Shown here in pieces: positions 29,309-42,815 of a DNA stretch of 42,815 nt; position 1 is the stretch's first letter; every line of letters begins with the position of its first letter. A program made the position numbers and the translations under genes. The notes beneath the pieces were generated by a model. That model had not been told where the DNA came from. It worked only from the letters and a program-made list of their open reading frames with translations, and ran no database searches. Source of the stretch: Candidatus Wolfebacteria bacterium (GTDB lineage Bacteria > Patescibacteriota > Minisyncoccia > UBA6257 > UBA9933); contig JACRPK010000005.1 in NCBI GenBank assembly GCA_016214005.1, positions 1 through 42,815 of the forward strand. Direction: 5' to 3'.

Positions 29309-31030
29309 ATGCGAATTTTTAACAAAATAATGCAAATGAAAAATTTAAATTTAAAAAACTCATTATCAATTATTATTATTGTGATCGGTATTTTTGTCAG
29401 TTATTCTGTTGTTGCTCAAGCTCAGGCGCAAAATATTGTTTATCCGATTGCTGAACTTGGCAATTGCGAAAATGAAACCGCTTGCAAAGCTTTTTGCGAT
29501 GATCAGAATAATATTTCTGTTTGCGTTGCTTTCGCCGAAGGTCATAATTTAATATCTAAGGATGAAGCGGCGAAAGCTAAGGCCTTTATTAAATCTGGCA
29601 AAGTTGGTCCGGGCGGTTGTAAGGGAAAAGATCAATGCGAGGCGTTTTGCAATGATACGGCCAATATCGATGTTTGTTTAAATTTTGCGAAAAATAACGG
29701 GCTAATGAATGAAAATGAATTAAAAGAAGCTGAGAAATTTTCTAAGGCTTTGAAAGAAGGCGCGCAGGCTCCGGGCAGCTGTAAAAATAAAAATGAATGT
29801 GAAAATTATTGCAATAATCCCGACCACATGGAAGAGTGTATCGCTTTTGCGGAAAAGGCGGATCTTATCCCAAGAGGAGAACTTGAAGAAGCTAAAAAGG
29901 CTTTGAAAGCGATAAAATCAGGAGTTAATCCGCCGGGGAATTGCCGCGGGAAAAAAGAATGTGAAACTTATTGTTCTGAATCTTCGCATATGGAAGAGTG
30001 TTTGGCTTTTGCTGAAAAAGCCGGATTTATTCCCCCGGAAGAAGCAATCCAAGCCAGAAAAATGATTCCTTTAATGCAGGCCGGTAAAATGCCGGGAGGA
30101 TGCCGCGGAAAAAATGAATGCGAAACTTATTGCGCAGATGAATCGCATAGCAATGAATGCGCTAATTTTGCGATTGAAGCTGGATTAATGAAGCCGGAGG
30201 AAGCGGAAATGTTTAAGAAAACCGGCGGCAAGGGTCCTGGTAATTGCAAGGGTAAAGATCAATGCGAGGCGTTTTGCAATGATTCGAATAATCAAGAAGT
30301 CTGCTTCAATTTTGCCAAAGAGCATAATTTAATTCCTGCGGAAGAGGTTGAAAAAATGAAAAGCGGAATGGAACAAATGAAGAAAGGTTTTGAAATGGCT
30401 CCGCCGGAAGTTTCGCAATGTTTAAAATCAGCTGTTGGCGAGGATGTTTTGAATAAAGTTCAATCAGGACAAACGATGCCGTCTCAGCAATTAGGCGAGC
30501 AAATGAGAAAATGTTTTGAACAATTTATGCCTAAGATGCCACAAGCGCCACAGGGGGGTCCGCAGGGAGAAGGAATTCCGGGCGGTCAAAATGGCCAAAT
30601 GCCTCCGGCTGGCATGATGCCGCCGCAAGGAATACGGGGAATGCAGGGAATTCCAGAGGGCGCTGGTTTTGGCGGGTCAAATTTTGGCGGTCCTGGCGGG
30701 TGCAAATCTCCTGAAGAGTGTCAAAAATATTGCTCCGAGCATTTAGATGAATGTTCTAAAATTCAAGGAGGATTTCAAGGCGGAGATCAAACGCCGAATA
30801 ATAAAATAAGAGAAGGTATCCCTGAAACGATTAAACAAATTGAAGGAATGCCCAATAGTGGAATTCCAGGTAGTGGAATTCCGGGCAAAGAGCAGATAGA
30901 AAAAATGATGCAGGGAGGAAAGATTCCCGAAGGATTTCCAAAAAATTTTGATGGGCAAAATATTCCGGAACAATATAAAAATATGATTCCGATGATGCCG
31001 CAGGCTCCCCAGCTGATTCCGGCTCAATAA
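29309..31030 (+). CDS. Secreted Cys-rich tandem-repeat protein
   Basis: 573 residues. A signal peptide or anchor (LSIIIIVIGIFVSYSVVAQA) is followed by six tandem units of about 50 residues and a partial seventh near residue ~465. Each unit follows the pattern C-x4/5-E-C-x2-YC/FC-x7/8-E/V-C-x2-FA, for example GCKGKDQCEAFCND and NCRGKKECETYCSE. Four regularly spaced Cys per unit suggest disulfide or metal binding outside the cell. The rest is Gly/Pro/Met/Gln-rich and probably disordered. Likely a surface or pilus-like structural protein; not matched to a characterised family. Confidence 0.75.
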   Translation: MRIFNKIMQMKNLNLKNSLSIIIIVIGIFVSYSVVAQAQAQNIVYPIAELGNCENETACKAFCDDQNNISVCVAFAEGHNLISKDEAAKAKAFIKSGKVGPGGCKGKDQCEAFCNDTANIDVCLNFAKNNGLMNENELKEAEKFSKALKEGAQAPGSCKNKNECENYCNNPDHMEECIAFAEKADLIPRGELEEAKKALKAIKSGVNPPGNCRGKKECETYCSESSHMEECLAFAEKAGFIPPEEAIQARKMIPLMQAGKMPGGCRGKNECETYCADESHSNECANFAIEAGLMKPEEAEMFKKTGGKGPGNCKGKDQCEAFCNDSNNQEVCFNFAKEHNLIPAEEVEKMKSGMEQMKKGFEMAPPEVSQCLKSAVGEDVLNKVQSGQTMPSQQLGEQMRKCFEQFMPKMPQAPQGGPQGEGIPGGQNGQMPPAGMMPPQGIRGMQGIPEGAGFGGSNFGGPGGCKSPEECQKYCSEHLDECSKIQGGFQGGDQTPNNKIREGIPETIKQIEGMPNSGIPGSGIPGKEQIEKMMQGGKIPEGFPKNFDGQNIPEQYKNMIPMMPQAPQLIPAQ

Positions 31031-39295: not shown

Positions 39296-39376
39296 CCAAT
39301 GGATTTTTAATACTAAAAAAACCGACATATTTATTTATTTCCCGCGGAATGATAAGAAACATTATTTTATATTAAT

Positions 39377-39453
39377 ATCCCCGCATAAATTCTCTCCAAA
39401 ACCCGCCATTGACTTTTTCATTTTCCCGAGTATAATATAAAATAGAAACTTTG
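39377..39453 (+). repeat. 77 bp direct repeat, copy 1 (left flank of cassette)
   Basis: Matches 42599-42675 with no gaps and six mismatches over 77 bases (offset 3222). The shared sequence begins ATCCCCGCATAAATTCTC and ends TAGAAACTTTG, and includes a full promoter. Together the copies bracket the radical SAM, peptide and two peptidase genes. Confidence 0.9.
39409..39436 (+). promoter_or_regulatory. Strong sigma-70 promoter of the radical SAM/peptide operon
   Basis: TTGACT (39409-39414), 16-base spacer, TATAAT (39431-39436). Near-consensus and repeated exactly in the second direct repeat. Start of transcription is expected near 39443, 78 bases before the radical SAM gene. The 225-base gap after ribonuclease J holds this promoter and the leader hairpin. 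Confidence 0.8.
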
Positions 39454-39459
39454 AAAAAT

Positions 39460-39484
39460 ACCAGTTCTAAGGTTAGAAACTGGT
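39460..39484 (+). other. Leader hairpin before radical SAM gene
   Basis: ACCAGTTCTA (39460-39469) pairs with TAGAAACTGGT (39474-39484) apart from one unpaired base. No T-run follows. At the matching place after copy 2 of the direct repeat there is instead a terminator. It may influence expression or mRNA stability. Confidence 0.5.
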
Positions 39485-39520
39485 TAAAAAAAGAAAGAAA
39501 AAGAAAGAGAGGATAAGGAA

Positions 39521-40771
39521 ATGAAGATAGATTATAATCCAATTCTTGTTGGTGATTCTATAGTTTTTAGAGATAAAGAGGGAATATTTATTTATAGCCA
39601 AAATAGAAAAAAAGTTGTTTTGGTAAATGATTTTATTGTTCAAGAGCTTCAGGAAAAAGGATTTTTATTGCCATTTTCAGAAAAATTTGAAAACTCTTCT
39701 AATAAGAAGAAATCTTTAAATTTAATGTTGTTATTGGGCAATAAATGTATTATGGGTTGCCGTTATTGTTATGCAAATGGTGGCGCGACCAATAATGAAA
39801 TGATGAGTTTTGAAGTGGCTGAAAAAGCAGTGGAACAATATATCAGTATGGAGCCAAATTGTAAAAGAATTACACTATTCGGAGGCGGAGAGCCAACTCT
39901 TAATATTGATGTCATTAAAAAACTAATTGATAAATATCAAAATTCTTTTAGTTGGATTTTAACAACTTCCGGCGTTATGTCTCAAAGTTTTCTTAAATGG
40001 CTTATAAATAAAAATGTTAATATTACTTTTTCAGTTGATGGGCCGTCTTTTGTCCAAAATAAATTAAGACCGCTACAAAATGGAAATCAGTCATCGCATA
40101 TTGTTGAAAGATCTATGCGCATTTGGAAAAGTGAATCTTGCAAACCTCTTTCAGTAAGAACTACTTTGACAAATGAGACATCAATTATTATCAACGATAT
40201 TTTGGAATATTTTAACCAAATTGGAGTTGATACTATCCATATTGAACCGCTTTATAATATCGGACGAGCGATAGGATCAACAAAAAAAGATTTATTTCAG
40301 CGACCGATTTTAGATAATTGGGTAAATGCCGTAATTATTGCATTAAGGTGGGCGAAAAATAATAAAAAACGCGTTCGGGTTGGAGAACTAATTTATTTTT
40401 TAAACCCCGGTGTTTCTTCTTATTGCAGTCCAATGCGTGGGAAAACGATAGTGGTTAATCATAGCGGAGAAATTACTGCTTGTAGCGAGGTCGTTGATGA
40501 TAGCAATGAAAATTGGAAATTATTTCATATTGGCAGTTTGGACTCAAAATTTAATTTTGATAGCGAGAAATTTAAATTTTTAGCCAATAGAACAGTTGAT
40601 AATATGGAATTTTGCAAAAATTGCTTTGTGAAATATCTGTGTAGGGGAGGTTGCGCCCATAAGGCGCTAACAGGAACAGGCGATTTATTTTCTCAAAATT
40701 CTTTTCACTGCGCATTTATGAAAAAAATTATTCCATTGTTAATTAAACGCATGGTTATCGGTAAATATTAA
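39521..40771 (+). CDS. Radical SAM/SPASM peptide-modifying enzyme
   Basis: 416 residues. The radical SAM cluster motif is C76-x3-C80-x2-C83 (KCIMGCRYCYAN), followed by LFGGGEPTL. The SPASM domain is complete: C302-x13-G-x4-C321, then C365-x2-C368-x5-C374-x3-C378 and C397, which would bind two more Fe-S clusters. SPASM enzymes mature peptides by forming thioether, C-C or similar bonds. The first ~65 residues are short and could be a reduced leader-binding (RRE-like) part, unproven. It ends 29 bases before a Cys-rich peptide gene. The ribosome site AGGATAAGGA is moderate. Confidence 0.9.
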   Translation: MKIDYNPILVGDSIVFRDKEGIFIYSQNRKKVVLVNDFIVQELQEKGFLLPFSEKFENSSNKKKSLNLMLLLGNKCIMGCRYCYANGGATNNEMMSFEVAEKAVEQYISMEPNCKRITLFGGGEPTLNIDVIKKLIDKYQNSFSWILTTSGVMSQSFLKWLINKNVNITFSVDGPSFVQNKLRPLQNGNQSSHIVERSMRIWKSESCKPLSVRTTLTNETSIIINDILEYFNQIGVDTIHIEPLYNIGRAIGSTKKDLFQRPILDNWVNAVIIALRWAKNNKKRVRVGELIYFLNPGVSSYCSPMRGKTIVVNHSGEITACSEVVDDSNENWKLFHIGSLDSKFNFDSEKFKFLANRTVDNMEFCKNCFVKYLCRGGCAHKALTGTGDLFSQNSFHCAFMKKIIPLLIKRMVIGKY

Positions 40772-40799
40772 GTTTAATATAAGAAAGGAGGTGAGATCA

Positions 40800-40922
40800 G
40801 TGGCTGATATTGTTGTAATTGATGCTTCATTAGATGAATTGGCTGGTATATCTAGCACCTGTCCGACTCATACTGATGATTGCCAGTGTGGCGATGATTG
40901 CACTTGTGGTACGGATACATAA
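40800..40922 (+). CDS. Putative Cys-rich RiPP precursor peptide
   Basis: A 40-codon gene with GTG start and TAA stop. A near-perfect ribosome site AAAGGAGGTGA (40784-40794) lies 8 bases before GTG; an in-frame GTG at 40791 overlaps that site and is less likely. The N-terminal half is acidic and hydrophobic (MADIVVIDASLDEL), like a leader. The C-terminal half holds five Cys at 21, 28, 30, 34 and 36, with two tandem hexamers DDCQCG and DDCTCG. A strong terminator follows at once. Directly behind a SPASM enzyme this fits a modified-peptide precursor. No family match can be claimed. Confidence 0.75.
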   Translation: MADIVVIDASLDELAGISSTCPTHTDDCQCGDDCTCGTDT

Positions 40923-40944
40923 ACTCGTGCGATTAATGCCACGA

Positions 40945-40981
40945 GCGTGTCTTTGTTAATTAATAAAGACACGCTTTTTTT
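40945..40981 (+). terminator. Strong intrinsic terminator after the peptide gene
   Basis: GCGTGTCTTT (40945-40954) pairs perfectly with AAAGACACGC (40965-40974), followed by T7. A smaller stem CTCGTG/CACGAG (40924-40929/40940-40945) precedes it. The structure overlaps the last codons of the opposite peptidase gene. Confidence 0.9.
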
Positions 40982-41862
40982 ATTGAATCTTTATCGCGTA
41001 ATAAAAAATTATTAAAATTTTCTTTTTGAGCTTCATATTTTTCTAATATTAAAATTATTTTTTTAATATTTTTAAAATATTGATTTTCAAGCAGTTTTAT
41101 TTTTTTATTATAATATTTTTTATTATTTTTATTTGAACGCAAAACAATAGCATGAATTAAATATTCTCTGATTATGGATAGCTCTTTATTTGTTATTTCA
41201 GTATTAAATATTTTTTTAGTTAACGGATTGATAATGGCATGCAAAAATTCATGCATAATTCTTTGAGATGGGAATTGATTGTTTTTATTACGAGACGGCC
41301 CCAAAATGGCATATGCTGTTTTATCAATTAGCGGTCCTAATCCACGATGATATTCATCAAGGAAATTTGGAATAACAATAAATTGATTGATATTTATATT
41401 TTTATTTGAAAGGCGAAGATAATATATTGCTGATTTTACACCAAGCTTAGTTTCAGTAAGGCATTTATTATGTATTTTCAAATATTCCTTATAAATTTGA
41501 TTCCAAAATGATTTAATATTTAGTTTTTCCCAAAAATATGAGCACTCGGCTTTGAATTCATAACTTGTTTTTTCATCTAAATATTTTTTCCAAATTGAAT
41601 TTATTTCTTTAAAATTTTGCGGTTGTTCATGGCAAAGAATCCATGTTCTAAAAGGAAACCAAAATTCTTTATTTAAATTTTGATAATTTAATATTTTCTC
41701 TGCGTTTTCAAAATTTATTTTATTTTTAACGATATTTTTTAAAAAATGACGCGCTTTTTTTCGAATTGGATGAATAGGATGAGTTTCGGGATTATATCCT
41801 ATCGCGTTTAACATTATGTAAAATAAAAAGATACGCTTGCTTATTTCTATCTTGATTTTCAT
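40960..41862 (-). CDS. Putative zinc peptidase with HEFLH motif
   Basis: 300 residues, Lys/Asn/Ile-rich. H204-E-F-L-H208 in RIMHEFLHAI is the zinc-binding HExxH helix. A Glu at about 233 (IIREYLIHAI) could be the third ligand as in gluzincins. No signal peptide is clear, though the N-terminus RIFLFYIMLNAIG is hydrophobic. Not assignable to a named family, with some likeness to DUF4932-type proteins. Lies 9 bases after the other peptidase gene and overlaps the peptide terminator at its 3' end. Candidate leader peptidase or associated protein, by inference. Confidence 0.65.
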   Translation of the reverse strand: MKIKIEISKRIFLFYIMLNAIGYNPETHPIHPIRKKARHFLKNIVKNKINFENAEKILNYQNLNKEFWFPFRTWILCHEQPQNFKEINSIWKKYLDEKTSYEFKAECSYFWEKLNIKSFWNQIYKEYLKIHNKCLTETKLGVKSAIYYLRLSNKNININQFIVIPNFLDEYHRGLGPLIDKTAYAILGPSRNKNNQFPSQRIMHEFLHAIINPLTKKIFNTEITNKELSIIREYLIHAIVLRSNKNNKKYYNKKIKLLENQYFKNIKKIILILEKYEAQKENFNNFLLRDKDSIKKACLY

Positions 41863-41871
41863 AAATAATTA

Positions 41872-42510
41872 TTATTGAATATTATCCAAAAATTCTTCTT
41901 CAAGTTTCGCAAGATTTTTGCCAAAAATATTAATTGCAATTTTGTCAAAACGATTATAGGAATAATAAATAGGAGCCGCTTGAATCAATTTTTTTATTGT
42001 TTTAAATCCATACTTATTAAGAAGATAGCGCGTGAATAAATAAGAGGTTGCATATGCTCCCGAACCCGAATTAACTCGCTGACTCCAATTAAATGGCGTA
42101 TCAAGTTTGCTGCAAAAATCAGTTTCGAAATATTGATTTTTTTTATTTTGTCCGGATCCAGAAATAGTTTCAGCTAATCCTTCATTCAACCATTTAGGGA
42201 GAGCTTTATTTTTTGATAGATGATTTGTGTAGGCATGAACTAATTCGTGTTTGATGGTAGTCGAAAATTTTTTTGGATTATGTATCGGAGCGTCTTTTTT
42301 CCATCGGACGGGATCCAATAATTTAATATTTTTTTCTTGTGGCGAATAACTTCCTATTTCCCAATCAGCGGTTTTTCTGCCCAATAATTTTTCGTATTCT
42401 ACTCTATTCTTGGCAATTATTATTTCAATTTCTAAATTAAAACCAAAAAAATCGGAGATTTCTTTTTTAGCTTTTTTAATTTCTGGGGCGTATTTAGTAA
42501 TTTTAAGCAT
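41872..42510 (-). CDS. Peptidase MA-like zinc peptidase (HELVH)
   Basis: 212 residues. H88-E-L-V-H92 (IKHELVHAYTNHL) is followed by PKWLNEGLAETIS, giving Glu110 as third zinc ligand, and GAYATSYLFTRYLLNKYG, the typical C-terminal helix of peptidase MA-like gluzincins. No signal peptide is seen. It is the first gene of a two-gene minus-strand unit and has no clear ribosome site. Possible role in cleaving the peptide leader, not shown by sequence. Confidence 0.75.
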   Translation of the reverse strand: MLKITKYAPEIKKAKKEISDFFGFNLEIEIIIAKNRVEYEKLLGRKTADWEIGSYSPQEKNIKLLDPVRWKKDAPIHNPKKFSTTIKHELVHAYTNHLSKNKALPKWLNEGLAETISGSGQNKKNQYFETDFCSKLDTPFNWSQRVNSGSGAYATSYLFTRYLLNKYGFKTIKKLIQAAPIYYSYNRFDKIAINIFGKNLAKLEEEFLDNIQ

Positions 42511-42598
42511 ATTATTTATTTTACTAAATTCTCTTTATTTTAGCCACTCATTTTTTCATAATTTGTTTTTTACTATTATTTTTTCCAAATTCTTCCGA

Positions 42599-42675
42599 AT
42601 CCCCGCATAAATTCTCTCCAAACCCCCCCATTGACTTTTTTATTTTCCCGAGTATAATATAGGGTAGAAACTTTG
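42599..42675 (+). repeat. 77 bp direct repeat, copy 2 (right flank of cassette)
   Basis: Same orientation as copy 1 at 39377-39453, ungapped, six mismatches. It lies between the peptidase genes and the IS30-like transposase end. Confidence 0.9.
42631..42658 (+). promoter_or_regulatory. Second copy of the strong promoter
   Basis: TTGACT (42631-42636), 16-base spacer, TATAAT (42653-42658), the same elements as the promoter at 39409. Its transcript would hit a terminator after about 50 bases, so no protein-coding target is seen downstream. Confidence 0.7.
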
Positions 42676-42689
42676 CGCACGTGAACCCC

Positions 42690-42815
42690 TCAAGCCGAAC
42701 ACTCGGCTTTTTTATTTTCTTCGACTTTTATCATATCACTTAATTTTATTTTATCCATATTTTTGAATAAATTATTTTCTTCCATTACTTCTTTTGGCGT
42801 TTTGAAATTCAAACA
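42690..42815 (-). CDS. IS30-like transposase, C-terminal fragment (cut by window edge)
   Basis: The frame is open to the window end and stops at 42690-42692. The visible part begins CLNFKTPKEVMEENNLF, a good match to the conserved end of IS30-family transposases (C-L-N-F/W-x-TP-x-E-V-F). The rest of the element lies beyond 42815. Its last codons form the stem of the terminator on the other strand. Too little remains to say whether it is intact. Confidence 0.65.
   Translation of the reverse strand, partial: CLNFKTPKEVMEENNLFKNMDKIKLSDMIKVEENKKAECSA
42692..42713 (+). terminator. Intrinsic terminator facing the IS30-like gene
   Basis: AAGCCGA (42692-42698) pairs with TCGGCTT (42703-42709) around an ACAC loop, followed by a T6 run. 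It stops plus-strand transcription from the promoter at 42631 before it runs antisense into the transposase. Confidence 0.8.

Follow-up and report, generated by a model that had tools for sequence, protein, structure and literature searches.

The described systems closest to the locus reported here are the PapA/PapB ranthipeptides (freyrasin), in which a radical S-adenosylmethionine (rSAM) maturase with a SPASM domain adjoins a Cys/Asp-rich precursor containing several Cys-Xn-Asp pairs, and the SCIFF peptides with their maturase CteB. Further points of reference are the Cys-Xaa-Xaa-Xaa-repeat targets of rSAM enzymes (TIGR04115-04117) and graspetide loci of the Candidate Phyla Radiation (CPR), known from a phylogenomic study of 2022, which have short precursors, peptidases of the zincin and Tiki/TraB kinds and sometimes a SPASM enzyme (PMC8939145, branches 1 and 2). 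Here, we characterize a locus at positions 39377-42675 of a 42815-nucleotide contig of Candidatus Wolfebacteria, the whole of which is referred to as the window; the contig ends 140 bases beyond the locus. The locus holds an rSAM/SPASM gene, a gene for a 40-residue Cys-rich peptide and a terminator, all on the plus strand, and two convergent genes for HExxH proteins on the minus strand. Taken as a whole, it is likely best explained as a cassette for a ribosomally synthesized and post-translationally modified peptide (RiPP) in which the enzyme would form thioethers over Cys-X2-Asp pairs and a HExxH protein would remove the leader, and which belongs to a set of exchangeable units sharing one promoter. 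That the cassette is a genuine RiPP system is, taken by itself, very probable. An original prediction made from the window had called the genome CPR-like, and the same order indeed includes Patescibacteria UBA6257 and Parcubacteria GWF1_45_5 genomes.

The enzyme (416 residues, 39521-40771, plus strand) was assigned as a PapB/CteB-like peptide maturase from its open reading frame (ORF), profile and fold matches and a 30-sequence alignment. It carries the rSAM motif CX3CX2C (C76, C80 and C83) as well as a complete seven-Cys SPASM set (C302, C321, C365, C368, C374, C378 and C397) that fits the pattern CX9-15GX4C ... CX2CX5CX3C ... C. These cluster cysteines are invariant or nearly so in the alignment, in line with the original prediction of a complete enzyme. 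CteB was the top PDB profile match (E 3e-34) and PapB (NF047865) the top NCBIfam model (120.9 bits, cut-off 340); the SCIFF maturase model gave 116 bits and did not reach its cut-off of 425. In a Foldseek search with an AlphaFold model of the enzyme (mean predicted local distance difference test score, pLDDT, of 91.7), CteB was again closest (E 6e-20), followed by TigE and anSME, with ChlB and SkfB also matching. Residues 8-45 of the model form four strands and one short helix ahead of the rSAM core, while the three-helix part of a full RiPP recognition element was not seen. The likeness to SCIFF systems lies in CteB being the closest solved structure by both profile and fold, whereas the short N-terminal sheet and helix, and a precursor outside the SCIFF family, set the locus apart. 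Antiviral viperin was considered as an identity for the enzyme and rejected, since the PADLOC matches were weak and are accounted for by the common rSAM core. Homologue scores of 951, 418, 360, 235 and 217 bits, followed by about 134 bits and lower, show a sharp fall outside the orthologous group.

Directly behind the enzyme gene lies the precursor peptide gene (40800-40922, plus strand), which has a GTG start and encodes the 40-residue peptide (M)ADIVVIDASLDELAGISSTCPTHTDDCQCGDDCTCGTDT. It is preceded by the strong ribosome binding site AAGGAGGTGA at 40785-40794 (plus strand); an alternative GTG at 40791 would yield a 43-residue peptide but overlaps this site. An intrinsic terminator (40943-40976, plus strand; folding energy -30 kcal/mol, z -6.1) stands 3' of the peptide gene and reaches into the 3' end of P0003, the convergent gene for a HExxH protein. 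Five other genomes (G236, Kazan, UBA6257 (G151), G072 and G186) have a peptide homologue immediately downstream of the orthologous rSAM gene, at a distance of 15-204 bp and with 35-49% identity over the aligned part, so that a short precursor is kept beside the enzyme in six genomes, this one included. In G236, which belongs to another family of the same order, the rSAM protein is 50% identical, a homologous 40-residue peptide follows 15 bp behind and a P0003 homologue is convergent; the Kazan-division genome has the same triad, with an rSAM protein 41% identical and the P0003 homologue upstream. UBA6257 (G151) and G072 encode an orthologous enzyme (about 31-33%), then a similar but longer peptide, with a HELTH protein convergent to them that in UBA6257 is related to P0004, the second HExxH protein of the window. 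G186 retains the peptide, although the frame of its enzyme gene is disrupted close to the end. The peptides share the end CPADxSCG[DQ]DC[ST]CxxD, with the window copy diverged at the start of that stretch. Judged by sequence, the 40-residue frame is a real gene, as had been proposed together with its ribosome site and the strong terminator. With a Cys-rich short ORF beside homologous enzymes and a conserved frame, the earlier reading of the locus as a peptide-modification system also stands. The window peptide has no match in NCBIfam or Pfam, the SCIFF precursor model included, and those of its relatives have no NCBIfam match above cut-off; a known precursor family for the window peptide was ruled out on that basis.

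The peptides share a characteristic spacing of Cys and Asp. In the cores of the six orthologous peptides, Asp is present at exactly i+3 for 20 of 31 Cys, whereas shuffling the cores gave 6.7±2.1 (none of 5000 shuffles reached the observed count), and no Cys-Asp spacing besides Cys-X2-Asp was enriched. Because the six peptides are related, the test was repeated on eight less related CPR peptides encoded near rSAM genes, a test that was only partly blind given that the peptides had been chosen as Cys-rich and some of them once the motif had been noticed. Here, 50 Cys-X2-Asp pairs were counted versus 15.3±3.1 after shuffling (0 of 4000 shuffles). Cys-X6-Asp was raised as well, which period-four repeats such as DCRNDCGCDNDCSRDC would lead one to expect; spacings 0, 1, 3, 4 and 5 were not. 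The window peptide, with five Cys in 40 residues, keeps the pattern in CGDD and CGTD, its first part having drifted. Compared with PapA/PapB, the locus shares the maturase type, the adjoining Cys/Asp-rich precursor and the top NCBIfam model but differs in using Cys-X2-Asp instead of Cys-X3-Asp (which is unenriched), in lacking an equivalog-level score and a precursor family match, in its HExxH partner and in its CPR hosts. The TIGR04115-04117 targets likewise have period-four Cys repeats beside rSAM enzymes; in our peptides, however, the fourth residue is preferentially Asp and there is no match above cut-off, a Dojkabacteria peptide reaching a weak 16.3 bits against TIGR04117 (cut-off 50). 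One of the eight less related peptides, of 96 residues and encoded directly behind an rSAM gene in genome G731 (L199:2608-2898), has 16 of its 18 Cys in Cys-X2-Asp, in a period-four run. Two further Cys-X2-Asp peptides, one in a Desulfobulbaceae genome (L111:7636-7815, 7 of 7 Cys) and one in a Hydrogenedentota genome (L124:7244-7426, 4 of 5 Cys), are encoded at 1.1-1.4 kb from rSAM genes; the pattern may extend beyond CPR.

The two opposite-strand HExxH proteins proposed earlier are both present. P0003 (40960-41862, minus strand, convergent; 300 residues, motif HEFLH) is a putative zinc peptidase whose HExxH residues (H204, E205 and H208) are invariant across eight sequences and whose model has a pLDDT of 87.9. 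P0004 (41872-42510, minus strand; 212 residues, motif HELVH) is a Peptidase_MA_2-like gluzincin with 35.6 bits against the Pfam model, above the cut-off of 32.4. Leader removal in RiPP pathways is known for M16 and other metalloproteases (PMC10885120). P0003, perhaps also P0004, would probably remove a leader that ends near the first Cys. Few genomes encode the P0003 family, namely 9 (this one included) out of the 293 searched. The original prediction had suggested checking whether enzyme, peptide and both peptidases co-occur: the enzyme-peptide pair recurs in the five other genomes and the P0003 family in the G236 and Kazan cassettes, but the P0004 family is not present in every orthologous cassette, its relatives standing beside rSAM-peptide units in UBA6257 (G151; BLAST E 5e-10) and L061. 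In G188, G186 and G053, members of the P0003 family also lie convergent to other rSAM genes, whose adjacent peptides terminate in C[PT]GxC[SA]CASK followed by a few more residues. These peptides form a second precursor family (L164:2349-2495, L014:1314-1439 and L020:1229-1393). A further P0003 family member adjoins an MvdD-type ATP-grasp in G021.

At its outer edges, the cassette is bounded by an approximately 80-bp direct repeat (39377-39456 and 42599-42675, both plus strand, 92% identical), which the original prediction did not mention even though its end coordinates coincide with it. The repeat contains a promoter near consensus (11 of 12 matches), in copy 1 with TTGACT at 39409-39414 and TATAAT at 39431-39436 separated by a 16-nt spacer. 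Copy 1 is followed by a common 5' leader (39437-39520, plus strand) with a hairpin, ACCAGTTCTAAGGTTAGAAACTGGT (about 39460-39484), and a ribosome site, GAGAGGATAAGGAA; near-identical leaders are found on C1 of this genome at C1:21428, 24917 and 31431. Promoter and structured leader would drive one transcript, rSAM followed by peptide, ended by the terminator. A terminator-like hairpin at 42692-42709, directly 3' of promoter copy 2 and 106 bases before the contig end, could be an attenuator or the mark of an empty unit. The promoter pattern TTRACTTTTTNNTTTTCNNRAGTATAAT has ten mismatch-free copies genome-wide, all on one strand, eight of them at C1:18599-31431 and two in the window, whereas a reversed-pattern control gave zero copies. 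The repeats seen are promoter/leader copies in a single orientation. The similarity extends into flanking DNA. The left flank block (39315-39521, plus strand), which ends at the rSAM start codon, matches the flank of unit R4 at C1:24819-25028 with 86.7% identity over 211 bp, and the right flank block (42508-42675, plus strand), which starts just 5' of P0004 and includes promoter copy 2, matches the next flank on C1 (C1:27301-27469) with 87.6% over 170 bp. Between these flanks, no DNA match was found between the window cassette and unit R4, and P0003 has no similarity to the HExxH protein of that unit. Since the flanks match and the contents do not, the simplest reading is that different units have been exchanged within the same flanks, apparently by recombination at the repeated sequences. 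No known RNA motif of the array region was found in Rfam. Short, weak matches to the leader DNA occur in just 3 of 150 other genomes, so that the repeat sequence is particular to this genome; for a repeat upstream of the G236 cassette, the one match was weak, 53 bp long and situated at a locus where an alpha/beta-hydrolase-like protein is encoded.

The eight promoter-led units on C1 (C1:18599-35226, L047/L048) are mostly peptide-modification modules with differing enzymes and peptidases, and their typical plan runs from a modifying enzyme of the rSAM, ATP-grasp or GNAT type through a short peptide to a peptidase. R-1 (C1:18599) has a 34-residue Asp/Ser-rich ORF and then an HLLEH (M16-like) protein, R1 (C1:20173) a 33-residue Gly-rich peptide and a C39-like protein, and R2 (C1:21428) a GNAT, a 66-residue peptide and an HMLEH (M16-like) protein, the peptidase assignment in R-1 and R2 being by motif only. 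R4 (C1:24917) encodes an rSAM/SPASM protein split by an in-frame stop, a 55-residue peptide and a convergent HExxH protein. R6 (C1:28811) comprises an MvdC/D-family ATP-grasp, a 36-residue peptide, a ChaN/Tiki protein and a DUF6624 protein, and R7 (C1:31431) lipoprotein-like ORFs, an rSAM/SPASM protein, a 30-residue peptide and an APH-family kinase. R3 (C1:23736; CFI-box-CTERM protein and two small ORFs) and R5 (C1:27426; 192-residue protein and convergent GNAT) do not clearly fit the plan. With its MvdC/D-type ATP-grasp and ChaN/Tiki protein, R6 is of the kind known from CPR graspetide loci, whereas the window cassette has no ATP-grasp and a precursor family of the Cys-X2-Asp type. The R4 rSAM/SPASM gene (L048:5029-6162) is interrupted by an in-frame TAA and is either a pseudogene or the result of an assembly error; an uninterrupted relative exists in G039 (L027), where a protein homologous to the HExxH protein of R4 is encoded as well. 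In the original prediction, the locus was described as a compact cassette. The cassette is real, but 'compact cassette' falls short as a description, since further units with the same promoter accompany it in the genome and the members of this set are probably co-expressed.

Comparable arrays were found in other CPR genomes, with repeat sequences unrelated to that of this genome. In G053 (L170:2453-11724), five copies of a repeat roughly 75-140 bp long, which has a plausible minus-strand promoter, are spread over 9 kb ahead of minus-strand genes. Among these are genes for two rSAM enzymes, for a homologue of P0003 and for GNATs, as well as a homologue of unit R5 (58% and 64% identity) that shares its convergent layout. 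G047 (L173:2589-8162) has three copies of a promoter with a hairpin leader, for which folding z-scores of -4.2 and -5.2 were obtained. Two of the copies precede rSAM-peptide units, and one of these units holds a 77-residue Cys-X2-Asp peptide. In G021 (L172:4342-8639), it is the 3' end of a histidine kinase gene that has been duplicated and makes up the repeat; at least two of its three copies are followed by a new unit. Two-copy flanking repeats occur in UBA6257 and L061, and no such repeats were found in G188 and Kazan. Among 68 segments, each of at least 8 kb and not a random sample, at least three spaced repeat copies were present in these arrays (this genome, G053, G047 and G021) and otherwise only at C1 36.5-37.8 kb (L048:16495-17802), a separate direct-repeat cluster with small ORFs resembling HicAB-type pairs. 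Given the non-random sample and the negative results for G188 and Kazan, we regard the layout as common and not universal.

As a fact of sequence, the promoter-sharing array is well supported; its regulatory and recombinational meaning is our interpretation. The repeated promoter might be nothing more than a strong promoter of a common kind that duplication has multiplied by chance, in which case the array would not be a functional set. Ordinary duplication can spread direct repeats, R3 and R5 are not clear peptide-modification systems and the R4 rSAM gene has its in-frame stop. However, the ten copies are confined to two loci and most of them head such units, rSAM/peptide units of G053 and G047 are likewise headed by arrays of independent origin whose repeats are unrelated, and repeats of at least three spaced copies are, among the 68 segments, otherwise limited to G021 and the one C1 region, so that we consider chance duplication rather unlikely. 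The broader proposal, that CPR keep dedicated arrays of exchangeable RiPP modules behind one copied promoter/leader, with the repeat as common regulatory input and recombination joint and with a Cys-X2-Asp thioether family largely specific to CPR as the leading chemistry, is put forward tentatively, at slightly less than even confidence.

Regarding the chemistry, the similarity to CteB and PapB together with the Cys-X2-Asp pattern favours thioethers, one of the products originally suggested. Within the core of the precursor, the enzyme would most likely connect the sulphur of each Cys with the Asp at i+3 through an S-Cbeta(Asp) bond; bonded in this way at each Cys-X2-Asp, the peptide would become a small ranthipeptide-like product with several rings, three being predicted for the Kazan peptide. 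We hold this prediction, drawn from sequence patterns, to be the best-supported guess and somewhat better than even. Several observations weigh against it or against the wider explanation. The enzyme falls below every NCBIfam equivalog cut-off shown and scores 13.8 with Pfam SPASM (cut-off 21.5), and its orthologues are rare (two above 300 bits, a few more down to about 130 bits). The window peptide retains just two clear Cys-X2-Asp pairs. The natural motif of PapB is Cys-X3-Asp, and according to a review Cys-X2-Asp is mostly unprocessed by PapB (PMC8172795); a later in vitro study found that PapB accepts n=0-6 (PMC9413430). Since the P0003 model has no significant match to a solved structure in the PDB, its peptidase assignment comes from the HExxH motif and the genomic context. 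Further, a Peptidase_C39 match is absent genome-wide, other exporter types lying outside that search, and the cassette genes include no transporter, as was already noted in the original prediction. Secretion, a metallophore role and C-C linkage, all raised there as possibilities, found no support. Lastly, a Cys/Asp-rich peptide could bind metal instead.

Another bond is conceivable in the modified peptide: Cys could be linked to a Calpha, as in sactipeptides, carbon could be joined to carbon, or the thioether could end on a residue that is not Asp. All of these are made by SPASM enzymes that share this fold, and anSME, TigE, ChlB and SkfB all match the model. Yet CteB and PapB are the closest matches, and a strict Cys-X2-Asp register, as seen across unrelated precursors, is what would be expected if Asp were the acceptor; we therefore judge the other bonds to be rather unlikely as a group. 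Lower still is our estimate for a metallothionein- or metallophore-like product with a minor or unrelated role for the rSAM enzyme, which we consider improbable. The core CQCGDDCTCGTD resembles CxCxxxCxC, a motif of the metal-binding type, and Cys and Asp are both ligands. The conserved register, however, is from Cys to Asp(i+3), with Cys-X0/X1/X3/X5-Asp not enriched, and the peptide is fixed directly behind the rSAM gene in a cassette whose genes include no metal transporter or regulator. Short ORFs being common, the 40-residue frame could in principle have arisen by chance with the enzyme acting elsewhere, but this has almost no weight left and was rejected because the peptide is conserved at the same position in five other genomes, besides having a strong ribosome site and terminator. 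The preferred reading thus remains a RiPP cassette with Cys-X2-Asp thioethers.

Elsewhere in the window, positions 29309-31030 encode a 573-residue putative secreted protein with repeated Cys units of the form C-x-x-x-x-x-C-x-x-F-C. In the literature, we found no paper on CPR rSAM Cys-X2-Asp peptides or on promoter-sharing RiPP arrays, which is weak evidence of novelty as most subscription journals were outside the coverage of the search. The text of the CPR graspetide study mentions neither 'array' nor 'promoter' (PMC8939145).

In conclusion, we characterized a probable RiPP cassette with a recurrent Cys-X2-Asp precursor and its place in a promoter-sharing array. CPR cells combine very small genomes with a life spent mostly on other cells, which raises the question of how they act on hosts or rivals; the product of this cassette might act outside the cell. 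For a cell of about 640 kb, ten copies of one promoter, most of them heading peptide-modifying enzymes, short precursors and peptidases, represent a heavy investment in modified peptides. If the Cys-X2-Asp prediction is true, the enzymes would be a natural source of a ring size unlike that of freyrasin. Because the promoter is common to all units, the whole set can be tested together, as expression of all units should rise and fall jointly, for example on contact with host cells.

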